Made by a program: the position numbers and the translations under genes | NCBI GenBank assembly: GCA_020061105.1 | Contig: JAGUYW010000089.1 | Coordinates: 1 to 50,529 of the forward strand | Length of the DNA: 50,529 bases | Origin: Anaerolineales bacterium | Lineage (GTDB): Bacteria > Chloroflexota > Anaerolineae > Anaerolineales > UBA4823 | Reading direction: 5' to 3' | Part shown: one piece after another, positions 528 to 25,001 of the stretch | How the letters are laid out: every line of letters starts with the position of its first letter | How positions within the stretch are numbered: position 1 is the stretch's first letter | Notes under the pieces: generated by a model | What the model was told of the DNA's origin: nothing | Databases searched by the model: none | The model's input: the letters and a program-made list of their open reading frames with translations, nothing else

Positions 528-1463
528 TCAGCCCTCCACCGGCGCGGCTACGCTTTCGACAATGCTGGCGACCAGTTCCTGCGGCTTGCGCCCGCGCAGT
601 TGCGCCTGCGGTGAGATCATCATACGATGGGTCAACACATGCGGCGCCAGGCGCTTGATATCGTCTGGAATGACATAATCGCGACCTTCGATGGCTGCCC
701 AGGCCTGGGCGGTCTGGTACAAAGCCAGGCTGGCGCGTGGGCTGGCGCCTAACTCGATCTCCGGGTGTTGGCGAGTGGCGTGGGCAATTTTGACTACGTA
801 ATCGCGCAGCGAATCTTCCATTCTGACCTGGCGACGCTGTTCCTGAAGCGCCAGGATCTCTTCGGGAGTGATGACCGGCTGCAGTTCGGGCAAGGGGTCA
901 GACAGGCAGAAGCGCTCTAAAATCTGCGCCTCTTCCCGCTCGTTGGGATAGCCGATCGCAATCCGCAGCAGGAAACGGTCGATCTGGGCTTCTGGCAGTG
1001 GGAAGGTGCCTTCCAACTCAACCGGGTTTTGAGTAGCCAGCACCAGAAACGGGCGCGGCAGCGGCCTGGTGACCCCATCCACGGTGACCTGGCGTTCTTG
1101 CATGGCTTCCAACAAGGCCGATTGGGTGCGCGGCGTGGCGCGGTTGATCTCGTCAGCCAACACAACCTGGCTGATGATCGGGCCAGGGCGGAATTCGAAG
1201 GCTTGCTCTTTCTGATTGAACCAGCTCAGACCGGTGACGTCCGAAGGCAATAGATCGGGAGTAAATTGCAGTCGGCGAAAGGAACAACCCAACGAGACCG
1301 CCAGGGCGCGCGCCAGAGTAGTTTTTCCGATGCCCGGCACATCTTCGAGCAGCACATGCCCTTCGCACAGCACGGCGGTCAAGGCCAGGTTAATCACCTC
1401 GTCTTTGCCAACAATCACTTTTTGGATGTTTTCCCGCACCCGGCGGGCAACTTGAGCAATCAT
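528..1463 (-). CDS. MoxR family AAA+ ATPase
   Basis: 311 residues, the usual size for MoxR ATPases. The Walker A motif (GIGKTT) lies near residue 46 and the Walker B (VVLADEINRA) near 100, followed by the AAA+ sensor region (LATQNPVELEGTFPLPEAQ) and the C-terminal lid. The family works as a chaperone-like ATPase in the cytoplasm, usually with a DUF58 and/or VWA partner. Here the DUF58 gene follows directly, its TTG lying 1 nt after the MoxR stop, so the two are surely co-transcribed and probably translationally coupled. The client is unknown. Confidence 0.95.
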   Translation of the reverse strand: MIAQVARRVRENIQKVIVGKDEVINLALTAVLCEGHVLLEDVPGIGKTTLARALAVSLGCSFRRLQFTPDLLPSDVTGLSWFNQKEQAFEFRPGPIISQVVLADEINRATPRTQSALLEAMQERQVTVDGVTRPLPRPFLVLATQNPVELEGTFPLPEAQIDRFLLRIAIGYPNEREEAQILERFCLSDPLPELQPVITPEEILALQEQRRQVRMEDSLRDYVVKIAHATRQHPEIELGASPRASLALYQTAQAWAAIEGRDYVIPDDIKRLAPHVLTHRMMISPQAQLRGRKPQELVASIVESVAAPVEG

Positions 1464-19499: not shown

Positions 19500-20507
19500 T
19501 CATATGCTTTGGGTGCTCAGTTCGACCCCAGGGCGCATTTCCATTTCATAAATGGTGTATTCGTGCTGCGGGTCCGGGCGCATACCGGCCTTGAGATACA
19601 GGTCAGTCGCTCCGGTCAGGCTGGCGCCATCCACGCCCAGGCCGACCTGGCGCTTGCCGCGCTGGCGGAACTGCTCGAACGAATGGTGCAGCAGCGCTTT
19701 ACCCAGGCCTCGACGTCGCCAGGCGCGCTGCACGCCCAAGGATCCCACCCAGCCCATCTCGGGGTAGCCATCGGTGTGTGGATAACACAACGACGTGCCA
19801 ACGATCTGGTCGCCATCCAGCGCCAGGAACCAAAGCTGTGGATCGAAGTATTCGCTGGTTTTCATAAAGTGCATCCAGCGCTCAAAATCCTGATCGAGCG
19901 AATGCTCGACGTGGCCCCAGTGGTCGCGGAAAGCATCGTTCACGGCTTCGAGCACAGCGCGTTCTTCCTGACCGACTCGCATGGTGCGCACGGTGATGCC
20001 TTGCGGCCACTGCGGAGGGGTGACGGGGTGATCTTCCAGGTCGATGACCATGCGCAGGTTACGGCGGATGGCGGTAAAACCTTCATCTTCAAACAGACGC
20101 CTGGCAGATTGAAACTGGCTGGGCACATATCCCAGCAGCGCCACGCGCGCTTCAGGCGGCGCTTTGGGGATCGCCGTTGCAGCGCGTTCTTTCACCCATC
20201 CAAGCAGCGCAGTGCCAATGCCCTGGTCCTGATACTGCGGGTGAACGCGCCCCCAGCACGAAATGCGCGTGTGTGGGTCGTTGAGGTCCCAGACCTCGTA
20301 ATAACCCACCACCTGTCCTTCTGCAGTTTTCACCAGACGCTGATCACGCTGCATGTCCAAACCCGGTGAGTTCCATTCGGTGCGGATATCTTCCAGATCG
20401 AACTTTTGAACGCTCAGGCTGTCGAGCGAACACAGGTTGAACATTTCTACAGTAGCTTCCAGGTCGGCCATTTGCGGCGCGACCAATCGATAACCATTGG
20501 ATGACAT
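19500..20507 (-). CDS. Two-domain GNAT acetyltransferase
   Basis: 335 residues with two GNAT domains. The first has HPQYQDQGIGTALLGWVKER near residue 90, the second RAWRRRGLGKALLHHSFEQF near 265. It is a paralogue of the 15204-16184 gene and has the same layout. It lies 18 bases after the RimL-type genes and 58 bases before the HAD gene, so probably belongs to the same transcript. The acceptor molecule is unknown. Confidence 0.85.
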   Translation of the reverse strand: MSSNGYRLVAPQMADLEATVEMFNLCSLDSLSVQKFDLEDIRTEWNSPGLDMQRDQRLVKTAEGQVVGYYEVWDLNDPHTRISCWGRVHPQYQDQGIGTALLGWVKERAATAIPKAPPEARVALLGYVPSQFQSARRLFEDEGFTAIRRNLRMVIDLEDHPVTPPQWPQGITVRTMRVGQEERAVLEAVNDAFRDHWGHVEHSLDQDFERWMHFMKTSEYFDPQLWFLALDGDQIVGTSLCYPHTDGYPEMGWVGSLGVQRAWRRRGLGKALLHHSFEQFRQRGKRQVGLGVDGASLTGATDLYLKAGMRPDPQHEYTIYEMEMRPGVELSTQSI

Positions 20508-20525
20508 ACAAACCTCTTTTCTGCA

Positions 20526-21101
20526 TCAAGGATTGGTTTCGGCGTGTTGTTGTCGTCTTAACCAATCTGCCTTTAAAATGCCCATGAACAAAATATCGTA
20601 GCGCTGCCCTTCTTTGTTTATCCATTGACGGGCGCGCCCTTCCAGGGTGAAACCGGCCTTTTCATAGGAGCGGATGGCACGCGGGTTATAGTCGAAGACC
20701 GTCAGAGAAACCCGCTGCAGGTTCAGCTCGGTAAAGGCATACCGCAGGATGATGCGCATGGCGTCGGTGCCGTAGCCTTTGCCCCAATCGGCGCGCTCGC
20801 CAATCGAGATGCCCACAAAGGTGTCGCCATGATTCCACCCCACACCGTCGAGGCCGATCTCGCCAATCAAGCGATCATCCTGTAGAGAGCGAATGACGAA
20901 CTGGTACAGGTGAATCGAATCTTCTTCCATCACCTTTTCCCAATACTTCTGGCTGGCTTTCTGCGAGTAGGGTTGGGCGATCCCGGAAGACATCAAACGC
21001 CAATACCACGAATCGCGCCCCCAGGCGACGGTGGCTTTCGCCATGCTTTCGGCGTCCACCGCCGACAGGCGCACCAGGTCGCCACGGAAACTATCTTTCA
21101 T
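20526..21101 (-). CDS. RimJ/RimL-type GNAT acetyltransferase (third of three)
   Basis: 191 residues from the ATG at 21101, in an ATGA overlap with the preceding paralogue. The pattern GERADWGKGYGTDAMRIILRY near residue 107 is the acetyl-CoA loop, followed by the RimJ/RimL signature YNPRAIRSYEKAGF. These enzymes acetylate N-terminal amines of proteins or amines of small molecules such as peptides and antibiotics. It is one of three tandem copies that clearly arose by duplication. Confidence 0.87.
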   Translation of the reverse strand: MKDSFRGDLVRLSAVDAESMAKATVAWGRDSWYWRLMSSGIAQPYSQKASQKYWEKVMEEDSIHLYQFVIRSLQDDRLIGEIGLDGVGWNHGDTFVGISIGERADWGKGYGTDAMRIILRYAFTELNLQRVSLTVFDYNPRAIRSYEKAGFTLEGRARQWINKEGQRYDILFMGILKADWLRRQQHAETNP

Positions 21102-21649
21102 CCCTGCCACTCCTCGCGCAAGATGCCCATGATCAAACAGTCAGCTCGCTCGCCGTCGCGATGCAGGCGATCCCGTTCGCGGCCTTCTACATTGAAACCG
21201 GCTTTCTCGTAGGAACGGATCGCTCGCTGGTTATAAGCAAACACTCCCAGGGTGACGCGGTGCAGGTTCAACTCGGTGAAACCATAGCGCAGGATGACCC
21301 GCATGGCATCGGTGCCATAGCCGTTATTCCAATAGTTACGCTCGCCAATCCCAATCCCCACCCAGGCATCGCGATGGCTCCAGGCACCGACAAACAGGCC
21401 AATGAAGCCGATATGGTGGTCGCCTTCCAGGGTGTGCATATGAAAGAAGAATTCGTTCGGCTCTTCTTTCTCAAGATCTTTCTCAATCCATTCCTTGATC
21501 TTCTTTGGAGACCACAGTTGAGACGGGTCCATATCCAAAAGGCGGTAGTATTCCGAATCGCGATCCCAGCGCGCAAAAGCTTTGCCTGCCAGTTCGGGTT
21601 CTTCAGCGGTCAGCCGCACAAGTTCTCCACGAAACAAATCTGTGTTCAT
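21098..21649 (-). CDS. RimJ/RimL-type GNAT acetyltransferase (second of three)
   Basis: 183 residues from the ATG at 21649, with AAGGAG seven bases upstream and an ATGA overlap with the preceding gene. Acetyl-CoA loop GERNYWNNGYGTDAMRVILR, then YNQRAIRSYEKAGF. A long upstream extension of the frame runs through the preceding gene and is not supported. It is nearest to the third copy in sequence. Confidence 0.87.
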   Translation of the reverse strand: MNTDLFRGELVRLTAEEPELAGKAFARWDRDSEYYRLLDMDPSQLWSPKKIKEWIEKDLEKEEPNEFFFHMHTLEGDHHIGFIGLFVGAWSHRDAWVGIGIGERNYWNNGYGTDAMRVILRYGFTELNLHRVTLGVFAYNQRAIRSYEKAGFNVEGRERDRLHRDGERADCLIMGILREEWQG

Positions 21650-22221
21650 TGCTCGCTCCTTGCTTGCCATTCCTGGCGTAAAATGCCAAAATGCAGCAGG
21701 TCCCAACGCCGTCCATCGCGGTCTAAGGCCTGGCGGCGGCGCACTTCTTCGGTGAAACCAGCTTTTTGCACAATATGCACAGCCACCGGGTTGTATTCTG
21801 GCACAACCGCGGTCAGGCGGTGCAGATTTAATTCGTGAAACGCATAGCGCATCAAAAGTTGCAGCGCTTCGGTTCCATAGCCCTTGCCACGCTCCTCGGC
21901 CTCGCCGATGCCCATGCGCAGATAGCCGTTTCCGTTTGTCCACTCAATCCAATCTAACCTGGCAAAACCGATCAGGCGATCATCCGGACGCAGGCGGATG
22001 GTGAAATAGAACAGGTTGCGTTTTTCTTCCATCTCTTTCTCGATGGCTTCATATTGCTTTTTCAGTTTCGCAGCCGAAAGCGGGCGCGCCGGTTCCGGAC
22101 TCAGCATGCGCAAATAAGCGGCGTCGTGCGTCCATTTTGATTCGATCTCGGGGTCTTTCTCGTGATCGATATGCGCCAGGCAAATTCTTTCCCCTTCATA
22201 CAATGATTTGCTGATATCCAT
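21646..22221 (-). CDS. RimJ/RimL-type GNAT acetyltransferase (first of three)
   Basis: 191 residues from the ATG at 22221, chosen because AAGGAG lies nine bases upstream and the upstream frame has no family match. Acetyl-CoA loop region GEAEERGKGYGTEALQLLMRY and YNPVAVHIVQKAGF identify the family. It is the most divergent of the three copies. It follows the ABC gene with a 73-base gap that contains a large hairpin. Confidence 0.87.
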   Translation of the reverse strand: MDISKSLYEGERICLAHIDHEKDPEIESKWTHDAAYLRMLSPEPARPLSAAKLKKQYEAIEKEMEEKRNLFYFTIRLRPDDRLIGFARLDWIEWTNGNGYLRMGIGEAEERGKGYGTEALQLLMRYAFHELNLHRLTAVVPEYNPVAVHIVQKAGFTEEVRRRQALDRDGRRWDLLHFGILRQEWQARSEQ

Positions 22222-22294: not shown

Positions 22295-23053
22295 TTAGAG
22301 TAAAACCCGCTTGATGCCGGGTGGGGTGTCAATGGCGGCAATCTTGCCATCGTCCATCAAGGCGATGCGGTCGCACAAGGCGCTGGCTTCAACCAGGTCG
22401 CGGGTGGCTAACAAGACGGTCACACCATGCAGGTCACGATACTCACGCAGCAGGTTATGGATCGCAGTCTTCGAGCGAACATCCAGGTTGGCGGTCGGCT
22501 CATCCAACAACAACAAGCGTGGGCGGGCGAGCAAGGCGCGCGCCAGTTCCACTTTTTTCTGGCTCACCAGGTGCAGTTCGCTCATCGGGTTTTGCAAGTC
22601 GGATTCATCCAACCCGAGGCGCCCCAGGATTTCGACCGCCTGGCGGCGCAGTTCGACATAACGGGCAGCCGTGGGGCGTGCGCCATAGAACAGGTTGTCT
22701 AGCGGGGAAAGCTTCTTGAAGAAGCTGGCGCCTCCCGAGATGCGGTTGGTCATCTGCTGCACCTGCTGCGAGTGGCTGACGACGTCGTAGCCGAAGACGC
22801 GCAAGCGACCACTATCCGGCAGCAGCAAGGTAGCCAACAAACGCAGCAGGGTTGACTTGCCTGAGCCGCTCGGTCCGACCACGCCGAAGATCTCGCTGCG
22901 ATGCACATGGAATGAGATATGATCGACCGCTACCACCTCTTTCAGGGCTTCGTTGAAACGGCTGTCCAACTGTCCATACTGCCGTCCCCACCCCGCCAGG
23001 TGTGAGCCGCCAAATTTTTTACAGGCATTGTATACACTGACTGCTTCAGACAT
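22295..23053 (-). CDS. ABC transporter ATP-binding protein with degenerate motifs
   Basis: 252 residues from the ATG at 23053, which has GGAGG five bases upstream; a TTG six codons earlier is less likely. Walker A is GPSGSGKST near residue 58 and Walker B is LLLLDEPTANLD near 178, with the catalytic Glu. The signature position reads LHLVS instead of LSGGQ, no clear Q-loop glutamine is seen (RISGGASFF), and the switch histidine is replaced (LLATRDLVEA, where ATHD is usual). No permease gene is adjacent. It could be a regulator, or an ATPase partner of a permease encoded elsewhere. Confidence 0.85.
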   Translation of the reverse strand: MSEAVSVYNACKKFGGSHLAGWGRQYGQLDSRFNEALKEVVAVDHISFHVHRSEIFGVVGPSGSGKSTLLRLLATLLLPDSGRLRVFGYDVVSHSQQVQQMTNRISGGASFFKKLSPLDNLFYGARPTAARYVELRRQAVEILGRLGLDESDLQNPMSELHLVSQKKVELARALLARPRLLLLDEPTANLDVRSKTAIHNLLREYRDLHGVTVLLATRDLVEASALCDRIALMDDGKIAAIDTPPGIKRVLL

Positions 23054-23083: not shown

Positions 23084-23119
23084 AAAAAAAACAGCCACCG
23101 GACATCGCGCCCGTGGCTG
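23084..23119 (-). terminator. Rho-independent terminator 2 (proximal to ABC gene)
   Basis: Stem CAGCCAC (23092-23098) with GTGGCTG (23113-23119), followed on the minus strand by eight T (23084-23091). It lies only about 30 bases before the ABC start codon, so transcription into the ABC gene requires read-through or regulation here. Confidence 0.7.
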
Positions 23120-23135
23120 GAGAAGGTCTAAAAGC

Positions 23136-23173
23136 AAAAAAACAGCCACGGGGTGGAGGCGCCCGTGGCTGTT
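23136..23173 (-). terminator. Rho-independent terminator 1 (after the 29-codon ORF)
   Basis: A perfect 12-base-pair stem (23141-23152 with 23162-23173) and a 9-base loop, followed on the minus strand by seven T (23136-23142, partly in the stem). The stem shares ACAGCCAC/GTGGCT with terminator 2, so the pair look duplicated. Confidence 0.85.
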
Positions 23174-23200
23174 CACGACACTCGGTTAGTTATCTACCGG

Positions 23201-23290
23201 TCAACAGGCGCACTCCGACAAGGAATAAGCAGCACCACCGCCGATCACGGCGATGCAAGCGCAATAGATTTGTGCAAATGTGTTATTCAT
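23201..23290 (-). CDS. 29-residue Cys-containing peptide (unknown)
   Basis: A short ORF with four cysteines arranged as two CxC pairs, at residues 10 and 12 and at the C-terminal 27 and 29. A hydrophobic middle (IAVIGGGAAYSL) separates them. AAGGA lies 13 bases before the ATG and 10 before an in-frame TTG one codon earlier. It has its own near-consensus promoter (23343-23370), a palindrome in its leader and two tandem terminators after it, so it behaves as an independent, strongly transcribed unit. It could be a RiPP-like precursor, a small membrane or metal-binding peptide, or a leader peptide controlling the ABC gene. I do not recognise it. Confidence 0.5.
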   Translation of the reverse strand: MNNTFAQIYCACIAVIGGGAAYSLSECAC

Positions 23291-23316
23291 CAAAGTGCGT
23301 CTATCCTTTCTAAAGA

Positions 23317-23331
23317 TTAAGGTTGCCTTAA
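23317..23331. promoter_or_regulatory. Palindrome in the leader of the 29-codon ORF
   Basis: TTAAGGTTGCCTTAA is a perfect inverted repeat (six-base arms, three-base centre). It lies about ten bases downstream of the -10 box, where a bound repressor would block transcription. It could also form a weak RNA hairpin. Confidence 0.5.
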
Positions 23332-23342
23332 GCGAGGGCAAT

Positions 23343-23370
23343 ATTATCATAACATTATGGGGTTTGTCAA
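23343..23370 (-). promoter_or_regulatory. Promoter of the 29-codon ORF
   Basis: On the minus strand TTGACA (23365-23370) and GATAAT (23343-23348) are separated by 16 bases; an overlapping TAATAT (23341-23346) gives 18. The -35 is a perfect consensus. Transcription would start near 23335. Confidence 0.75.
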
Positions 23371-23400: not shown

Positions 23401-23429
23401 TTGACAAAACGAAACAAAAAAGCGATAAT
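23401..23429 (+). promoter_or_regulatory. Promoter of the padR-type operon
   Basis: TTGACA (23401-23406), 17 bases, then GATAAT (23424-23429), close to the sigma-70 consensus. Transcription would begin inside the palindrome that follows directly. Confidence 0.78.
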
Positions 23430-23430
23430 C

Positions 23431-23470
23431 ATATATGTCGTTGTGCGACACATTGACGCACGACATATAT
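23431..23470. promoter_or_regulatory. Probable PadR operator (nested palindromes)
   Basis: Arms ATATATGTCGT (23431-23441) and ACGACATATAT (23460-23470) are exact reverse complements. Nested inside are TGTCG-5-CGACA (23436-23450) and GTGCG/CGCAC. The position directly after the -10 box fits autorepression by the PadR protein encoded just downstream; PadR sites often hold ATGT...ACAT symmetry. Confidence 0.6.
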
Positions 23471-23517
23471 TGAGTAAACTATCCAATCCATCGAATAAAC
23501 TGTCCCGTAAAACCAAC

Positions 23518-23877
23518 ATGCCAGAAACCTCCAACCTGCCGCTGACCGAAACCACTACACTGATCCTGCTCAGCCTGGCGCCAGGCCCGAGCCACGGGTA
23601 CGCTATTATGAAAGATGTGCATACCCTGAGCGAAGAACGCGTCGCCTTGAGCACAGGCACGCTCTACGGGGCGCTGAACCGCCTGTTGGAACAAGGCTGG
23701 ATCGAACGGGTGGACGACCCCCAACCTAACTCCACCCGGCGTGAACGGAAGGCCTACCGCCTCAGCGCAGTGGGACGCTCTATCCTGATTGAGGAGTTGG
23801 ATCGATTGGAAAGTCTGAACACAATTGCTCGCCAGCGCCTGAGCCCAGGGGGCTATGGAGACACCCAACAACCATGA
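23518..23877 (+). CDS. PadR family transcriptional regulator
   Basis: 119 residues from the ATG at 23518. The PadR winged helix is clear: LTETTTLILLSLAPGPSHGYAIMKDV, then LSTGTLYGALNRLLEQGWIER and the beta-wing with RRERKAYRLSAVGR. The frame is open further upstream through the operator, but that stretch has no family match. No good ribosome site precedes the ATG. It overlaps the membrane-protein gene as ATGA, a common pairing in which the PadR protein controls the membrane partner. Confidence 0.9.
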   Translation: MPETSNLPLTETTTLILLSLAPGPSHGYAIMKDVHTLSEERVALSTGTLYGALNRLLEQGWIERVDDPQPNSTRRERKAYRLSAVGRSILIEELDRLESLNTIARQRLSPGGYGDTQQP

Positions 23878-25001
23878 AAATGCTCCCCACCTGGCTACCA
23901 GCCGCTTACCGTGCCCTGCTCAGATTGTATCCCAAAGCTTTTCGGGAGGTCTACGCAGCAGAAATGCAAAGCGTTTTCACCCATGCGCTATCAGACGCCC
24001 GGCAGCGTGGCGCTCTGCCCGTGCTGAGGTTGTGCAGCCGTGAACTGCTGGAACTGCCCCTGGCCGCGCTGGTCGAACACCAGCATGAAAGGAACCGCAC
24101 CATGCTAACGAACCCGCCCGTAGCGCGCACCCCCTGGTGGATTGCCCTGGCCGCCAGCGGGCCTTTCTTTATCGCCATTCTGGATGCCGTGGCGTTAGAT
24201 GCGCCGCCAACCGTGAAGCTGGTTTTGGCGCCGTCTTTGCTGCTCTTTTGCGTGAGCATTCTGCTGGTCGAAATCATTCGCCAACGCCAGGTACCCTTCT
24301 GGGTATTGGTTTATGTGGGGTTCTTTCTCTTTGGTGCTTTCGCCAATTTAGCCGCGCCATTTCTCGATCGCATTTCCTGGATCAGAAGCCTTTACGACAG
24401 CCTGGGCGACACAGACCAACTATCCATGCGACTGGCCTGGTCTTTGTTAAGCAGCCTGAGCCTGTGGAGCATCTTGCTGCTGCTCACCGCCGCCGGATTA
24501 GGATTGGCCTGGATGCTGCCGGTGGCGCGCAACCTGGCGCGTTCGGCGCTGCAGCATTGGGATTACCTGGTGTTGTTGTTGTATGGCGCCGTGCCTTTTC
24601 TTTATTTGGTTGAATTTGACAGCTATCGTTATGATCAACCCTTCAGTTCGACAGGGATTGCTTGCCTGGGATTGGGGGTTCTTTTCTTCCTGCGCTCTCG
24701 AAGCCGCGGCGGGCGCTTGCTGGCGCTGCTGGCTGGCATGAGCGCGGCGTATTGGATCATGGCGGTTTCAAAATATTATCTGGTGCCGCTGCAAACCTGG
24801 GAATATTGGTTTAACCATAATCCCGTTGAAACCGAACGCTGGTTTGAGTCCTTGAGCACATTGCTATCCTGGGTTGTGATGCTTGGCGCCCTGAGCCTGC
24901 CCGCCTTGCTCAGCCGCTGGCAAGCGAAGGTCGCCGTCGAGGCAGAAGATGCTACGGCGCAAGAACTACCGCCGGCGCACTCAGCCCGGCCTGGCAACTG
25001 A
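23874..25001 (+). CDS. Multi-pass membrane protein paired with PadR
   Basis: 375 residues. The N-terminal 60 residues contain YRALLRLYPKAFREVYAAEM, a segment often found at the start of PadR-associated membrane proteins and permeases. About eight hydrophobic segments follow (from about residue 85 to 355), among them a pair near 120-150 and clusters near 190-230, and the C-terminus is cytoplasmic-looking and acidic. No enzymatic motif is seen. Translation is coupled to the PadR gene. The function is unknown. Confidence 0.8.
   Translation: MKMLPTWLPAAYRALLRLYPKAFREVYAAEMQSVFTHALSDARQRGALPVLRLCSRELLELPLAALVEHQHERNRTMLTNPPVARTPWWIALAASGPFFIAILDAVALDAPPTVKLVLAPSLLLFCVSILLVEIIRQRQVPFWVLVYVGFFLFGAFANLAAPFLDRISWIRSLYDSLGDTDQLSMRLAWSLLSSLSLWSILLLLTAAGLGLAWMLPVARNLARSALQHWDYLVLLLYGAVPFLYLVEFDSYRYDQPFSSTGIACLGLGVLFFLRSRSRGGRLLALLAGMSAAYWIMAVSKYYLVPLQTWEYWFNHNPVETERWFESLSTLLSWVVMLGALSLPALLSRWQAKVAVEAEDATAQELPPAHSARPGN

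Follow-up and report, generated by a model that had tools for sequence, protein, structure and literature searches.

The leader described here is probably (we would put the chance at about 0.78) a cis-acting, ribosome-controlled transcription attenuator resembling that of vmlR. Such an RNA switch would probably turn on drug-resistance-type genes (ABC transporters, ABC-F proteins, acetyltransferases and efflux pumps) when ribosomes become stuck. The RNA, and not a peptide, is the conserved object. Judged by sequence, it would represent a new RNA family with a known kind of mechanism, its vmlR-like class being assigned by anatomy, not by induction.

In the proposed mechanism, RNA polymerase would transcribe a short upstream ORF (uORF) carrying element B at its 3' end. 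In the absence of drug, either a ribosome completing the uORF would cover B or element A would pair with B; the first terminator (T1) would then form and the ABC/GNAT operon would remain off. The presumed drug spectrum is that of early-acting translation inhibitors. These would arrest the ribosome at or close to the start codon of the uORF, leaving A covered and B free. Free B would pair with element C (the T1 loop and upper 5' arm) and T1 could not form. The freed T1 3' arm might then pair with the 5' arm of the second terminator (T2) and disable this as well, allowing the polymerase to read through. The uORF would serve as a landing strip for ribosomes, its peptide sequence being irrelevant.

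The leader in its genome and in Anaerolineae

The features of the locus are listed below. All coordinates are those of the window, the whole stretch of 50,529 nucleotides that was analysed.

23343-23370, minus strand: sigma-70-type promoter (-35 TTGACA at 23370-23365, -10 GATAAT at 23348-23343); the same type is found in 131/134 relatives
23291-23301, minus strand: element A, GACGCACUUUG, between the Shine-Dalgarno sequence (SD; AAAGGA) and the uORF start codon; complementary to B; proposed anti-antiterminator strand
23201-23290, minus strand: uORF of 29 codons, MNNTFAQIYCACIAVIGGGAAYSLSECAC*; a uORF runs through the motif in 136/136 relatives, in three frames
23232-23256, minus strand: P1, a hairpin within the uORF directly 5' of the motif
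23201-23218, minus strand: element B, conserved motif UCGGAGUGCGCCUGUUGA, with its pairing core at 23217-23207; proposed antiterminator strand
23155-23165, minus strand: element C, CGGGCGCCUCC, end of the T1 5' arm and loop; complementary to B (B:C -19.1 kcal/mol in the window)
23136-23173, minus strand: T1, intrinsic terminator 1, hairpin and U7, -22.0 kcal/mol
23084-23120, minus strand: T2, intrinsic terminator 2, a near-twin of T1, -17.2 kcal/mol; pairing of its 5' arm with the 3' arm of T1 is possible (-21.5 kcal/mol)
22295-23053, minus strand: ABC ATPase gene, DrrA-like (below the TIGR01188 cut-off), ATG at 23053; proposed first gene controlled
19500-22218, minus strand: four consecutive GNAT acetyltransferase genes (ends at 21646, 21098, 20526 and 19500), probably in the same operon as the ABC ATPase gene

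An initial annotation, made from the sequence alone, had already pointed out the promoter (11 of 12 positions match the consensus), the 29-codon ORF with cysteines at residues 10/12 and 27/29, and the twin terminators, both of which are hairpins with U-tracts and sit directly 5' of the ABC ATPase gene. It had also included a leader palindrome, TTAAGGTTGCCTTAA. This is indeed present 3' of the promoter (approximately 23317-23331), but the family alignment shows no conservation of its palindromic character, and we have dropped it as a functional element.

The ABC ATPase gene is followed by the four GNAT acetyltransferase genes, a HAD hydrolase gene and an amidase gene. When used as a query against genome contigs, the window ATPase retrieves only ATPases of 28-38% identity, from many phyla. 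Divergent from the leader, and sharing its intergenic region, are genes for a PadR regulator and for a membrane-like protein of 375 amino acids with no Pfam match (23401-24998, plus strand). The PadR protein might provide the leader promoter with a second layer of control.

Element B is an 18-nucleotide motif, TCGGAGTGCGCCTGTTGA, at the 3' end of the window ORF. A protein search with the 29-amino-acid peptide identified ORFs ending in SECAC* in the same family, and among these relatives the nucleotides TCGGAGTGYGCCTGYTGA are almost invariant. Allowing at most one mismatch, this pattern occurs in 22/38 family genomes, while a reversed control pattern occurs in none. A covariance model built on the motif and T1 matches 33/38 family genomes and 280/400 order genomes (E <= 0.01), with up to five copies per genome, and 118/396 genomes in a sample of the class (E <= 0.001). 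The phylum sample (E <= 1e-4) yields matches in this class and in no other. Genomes matched include Anaerolineales bacterium (E=3e-15), Chloroflexi bin.33 (1.5e-8), Chloroflexi HyVt-442 (1.6e-5) and Anaerolineae SKW140 (2.7e-5), the E-values being rough and only those of about 1e-6 or better being safe. One Dehalococcoidales genome, one Thermoflexaceae genome and controls from outside the Chloroflexi gave no match to the model better than 0.007. This distribution points to Anaerolineae (Chloroflexota) as the lineage of the window. A second match in the window's own genome (G000:C7, L271; E=2.8e-4) carries neither a proper motif nor a uORF and is judged to be a false positive.

No Rfam 15 family reaches its gathering score in the leader: the window yields tRNA only, and the best weak match within the leader scores 22.9 bits (gathering score 41). 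We have found no earlier description of such an element from Anaerolineae in the open-licence literature, where absence proves nothing.

The uORF, pairing and target counts come from a set of 136 aligned copies. A promoter of the form TTGAC-N17..20-TANNNT lies at most 110 nucleotides before the uORF start in the 131/134 relatives mentioned above (one in shuffled letters). T1 is found in 136/136 elements and T2 is robust in just 81/136. An exact copy of the motif also occurs on one contig of a viral collection (L273; IMG/VR UViG_3300007790_000083, 1074-1095, minus strand), which could be the edge of a provirus or host DNA.

Pairing between leader strands and terminators

The core of B (GGAGUGCGCC) is complementary to C. 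In 21 of 23 B variants the element's own C pairs better than a swapped C (p=1.2e-6), and two-sided compensatory changes occur at 7 of the 10 core pairs; compensation was scored on best-duplex registers with swapped-partner controls, and kinship was ignored. Examples of B and C changing together are GGAGUGUGCC/GGUACAUUCC (L103), GGGGUGCGCC/GGUGCACCC (L093) and GAAAUGCG/GCGUUUCG (L232).

Element A is also complementary to B. The A:B duplex is strong in the window (-14.8 kcal/mol) and reaches -10 kcal/mol or better in about two-thirds of the elements (87/135, against 10.7% with shuffled A). Strong pairing is found in 77/103 elements of the large frame group and 10/30 of the group called frame 0 (see below). 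A is weak or absent in about one third of elements, mainly frame 0, and an anti-antiterminator is not universal. A and B change together in L232 and L105. Taken by itself, A:B does not reach significance in the variant-level test (p=0.08) and is therefore less certain than B:C.

Folded without a ribosome, the window leader up to C adopts an extended A:B hairpin. Masking the footprint of a ribosome on the start codon gives B:C pairing instead, and the corresponding mask on the stop codon leaves neither A:B nor B:C. This behaviour extends to the family: B:C appears in 121/135 elements with the start-codon ribosome (46 with shuffled C) and in 8/135 with the stop-codon ribosome. With no ribosome, the final folds of the 135 elements include A:B in 47 (9 when the sequence before the AUG is shuffled) and B:C in 83. 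A:B may nevertheless be kinetically favoured during synthesis, since it is transcribed first.

Most of B:C falls within the T1 loop, with just two to three bases of the T1 stem used. It could therefore be a pseudoknot that stabilises the terminator, in which case a ribosome over B would relieve termination. We consider this unlikely. In most elements only 1-4 nucleotides separate C from the T1 3' arm, beside a B:C helix of approximately 10 bp, and in H-type pseudoknots a helix of this length with such a gap is unlikely to coexist with a full stem. On these steric and kinetic grounds the B:C helix should exclude the full T1 stem. Moreover, if B:C stabilised T1, normal translation would activate resistance genes, which makes little sense for such targets.

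Under the attenuator that we propose, release of the T1 3' arm could also affect T2. The 3' arm of T1 complements the 5' arm of T2; own partners beat swapped ones (p=3e-4), and the pairing reaches -12 kcal/mol or better in 65 of the 81 robust T2 terminators. The freed arm might in this way disable T2.

A CCTT sequence immediately 5' of the motif (elements L093-L118) is conserved in both main frames and is explained by neither A:B nor B:C. Pairing of this sequence with the SD was considered and dropped, as it would not nest with A:B.

Translation across the motif

A uORF passes through the motif in every one of the 136 copies, starting 44-96 nucleotides before the motif and stopping between -1 and +10 nucleotides from its end. 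In 120/136 an ATG preceded by a strong SD is open through the motif with a stop right after it, compared with 1.2 in dinucleotide shuffles. The frame is not constant: the same nucleotide motif is read as ...RSAPVxR* in 104 copies, as ...SECAC* (frame 0) in 30 and as ...GVRL* in two. Within the motif, both main frames have fixed four-fold degenerate third positions (G in 104/104 and T in 102/104 in one; G in 30/30 and C in 30/30 in the other), which implies selection at the RNA level. In the uORF body, changes in 13 independent close pairs number 39, 46 and 49 at the first, second and third codon positions, respectively, and synonymous changes (a share of 0.34, against a neutral expectation of 0.27) show no significant excess (p=0.12). 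Together, the open SD-led uORFs, the fixed degenerate sites and a body with no significant constraint indicate that translation across the motif is selected whereas the peptide, detectably, is not. The region of P1, directly before B, is more stable than in shuffles over the 136-element set (p=9e-19).

These results bear on explanations in which the peptide or another factor takes part. One is that a SECAC or RSAP peptide, together with a drug or an amino acid shortage (for example, of cysteine), halts the ribosome as it reaches the uORF end, where the ribosome itself would block T1. MsrDL acts through a stall at the stop codon (PMC10314930), the uORF stop codon is close to the end of the motif, and T1 begins a median of 27 nucleotides after it. 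With three frames, however, there is no common C-terminal peptide of the erm/cat/msrD kind and there are no Cys codons conserved throughout; a ribosome on the stop codon covers B and mostly falls short of T1, and the covariation of B with C is left unexplained. Such a stall is distinctly improbable. Nor does the family resemble an attenuator of cysteine biosynthesis, as its targets are ABC, GNAT and MFS genes and Cys codons are conserved in frame 0 copies only.

It is highly improbable that B is instead bound by a trans-acting protein or RNA with the link to the ribosome being secondary: B is far more invariant than C, which speaks for such a factor, but two cis partners, A and C, already account for this, and the uORF is universal.

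A functional peptide was the first of two readings in the initial annotation, which proposed an exported, metal-binding or RiPP-like product. It had suggested searching relatives for the peptide and had named, as evidence against it, a frame that is not conserved with synonymous and non-synonymous changes equal. The frame proved not to be conserved and the synonymous excess is not significant, which argues against a peptide function. The SECAC peptide was convincing as a conserved product in the first relatives but was ruled out once other frames appeared, and no core peptide is conserved in one frame across the 136 copies, as would be expected of a RiPP precursor or small secreted peptide. 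The two CxC pairs are not conserved among relatives; with three frames across the motif, CxC is a by-product of one of them. That the peptide is the product is hardly credible: a strong promoter of its own, an SD, two CxC pairs, two terminators, and acetyltransferase and ABC ATPase genes nearby all suit it, but the frame varies, the body lacks significant amino-acid constraint, the motif is fixed at synonymous sites and the main (RSAP) frame has no conserved CxC end. Support is good for the second reading, in which a leader ORF and attenuators control the ABC/acetyltransferase genes, although neither the RNA pairing nor the conservation of translation as such had been recognised.

Known attenuators and target genes

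Descriptions of antibiotic-sensing attenuators have mostly dealt with individual genes, in Bacillota and Actinomycetota. We know of no sequence relation between the vmlR leader and the Anaerolineae family, and the two are compared here by anatomy, not by alignment. In the vmlR leader of Bacillus subtilis, initiation-arrested ribosomes induce and the uORF codons can vary (PMC9226507). Both systems have a uORF and a terminator, and ABC-F genes lie behind both kinds of leader; the antiterminator of vmlR has a proposed counterpart in B:C, and its anti-antiterminator a candidate one in A:B, in about two-thirds of elements. Here the SD-led uORF and T1 precede the gene, the antiterminator pairing shows compensatory change and its competition with T1 would follow from geometry. 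It is likewise predicted that an initiation-arrested ribosome blocks the anti-antiterminator and that uORF codon identity is largely free. The differences are that the uORF typically has 27-33 codons (three in vmlR), that B lies within the end of the uORF, that C is a terminator loop, often with two twin terminators, and that many unrelated gene families share a single family of homologous leaders.

The msrD and mefA leaders sense macrolides via specific stall peptides, and in msrD the stalled ribosome obstructs the terminator (PMC10314930). The Anaerolineae leader shares with these and other ARE ABC-F attenuators (for example, lmo0919) a leader ORF and an intrinsic terminator before resistance genes, but has no conserved peptide. 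The toiL uORF of Escherichia coli, which acts on topAI through translation initiation and Rho-dependent termination (PMC12121999), is a further case in which a single uORF is proposed to respond, through the position of the ribosome, to several classes of ribosome-targeting antibiotics; the Anaerolineae leader, unlike toiL, would target an intrinsic terminator. The uORFC-6-1 motif before hflX in Bacillales (PMC8632094) is likewise a predicted structured RNA that contains a uORF and precedes a ribosome-stress gene. It concerns another phylum and another target, and the text describing it does not mention Chloroflexi.

The first downstream gene is ABC in 71 elements, GNAT in 36, U200 in 17 and MFS in 8 (132/136); the remaining four all lie at contig ends. 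These groups were defined on the same gene set, and independent support is provided by Pfam: 116 first genes include ABC_tran in 65 (25 with ABC_membrane and 18 with the ABC-F linker), GNAT in approximately 30 and MFS in 6. Examples of the ABC-F targets pass NCBIfam NF000355 (ribosomal protection-like ABC-F) and match ABC-F proteins whose ribosome-bound structures have been solved. In one genome (G022) there are three leaders: one precedes an ABC ATPase/GNAT operon, another an ABC exporter and the third an ABC-F gene. The apparent antisense orientation of some first genes (L150, L151, L165, L180 and others) is an artefact of long ORFs on the opposite strand; MFS, GNAT or ABC genes are present in the sense direction.

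One RNA family with a short, nearly invariant core marks resistance-type genes widely in the largely uncultured Anaerolineae, and the leader alone flags candidate self-protection genes, including unknown ones. We would give even odds to a broader reading, that this single attenuator family, with at most five copies per genome and spread across one class, governs a translation-stress regulon: a frame-free, peptide-independent sensor of initiation-arrested ribosomes with a two-terminator strand-exchange cascade, placed before unrelated resistance families (ABC-F, ABC/MFS efflux and acetyltransferases). With three uORF frames already explored by evolution, the need for a stall peptide in such sensors is directly testable.

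The uncharacterised U200 proteins (approximately 200 amino acids, '...GYRVDYLN...YVCGSL...'; for example, L141, L145, L146 and L149) are candidates for a new resistance or stress protein. The one protein tested, that of L146, has no NCBIfam match at E <= 1e-20. U200 genes are mostly followed by GNAT genes, and runs of GNAT genes are common behind the leader in relatives, with three in succession in 13 elements.
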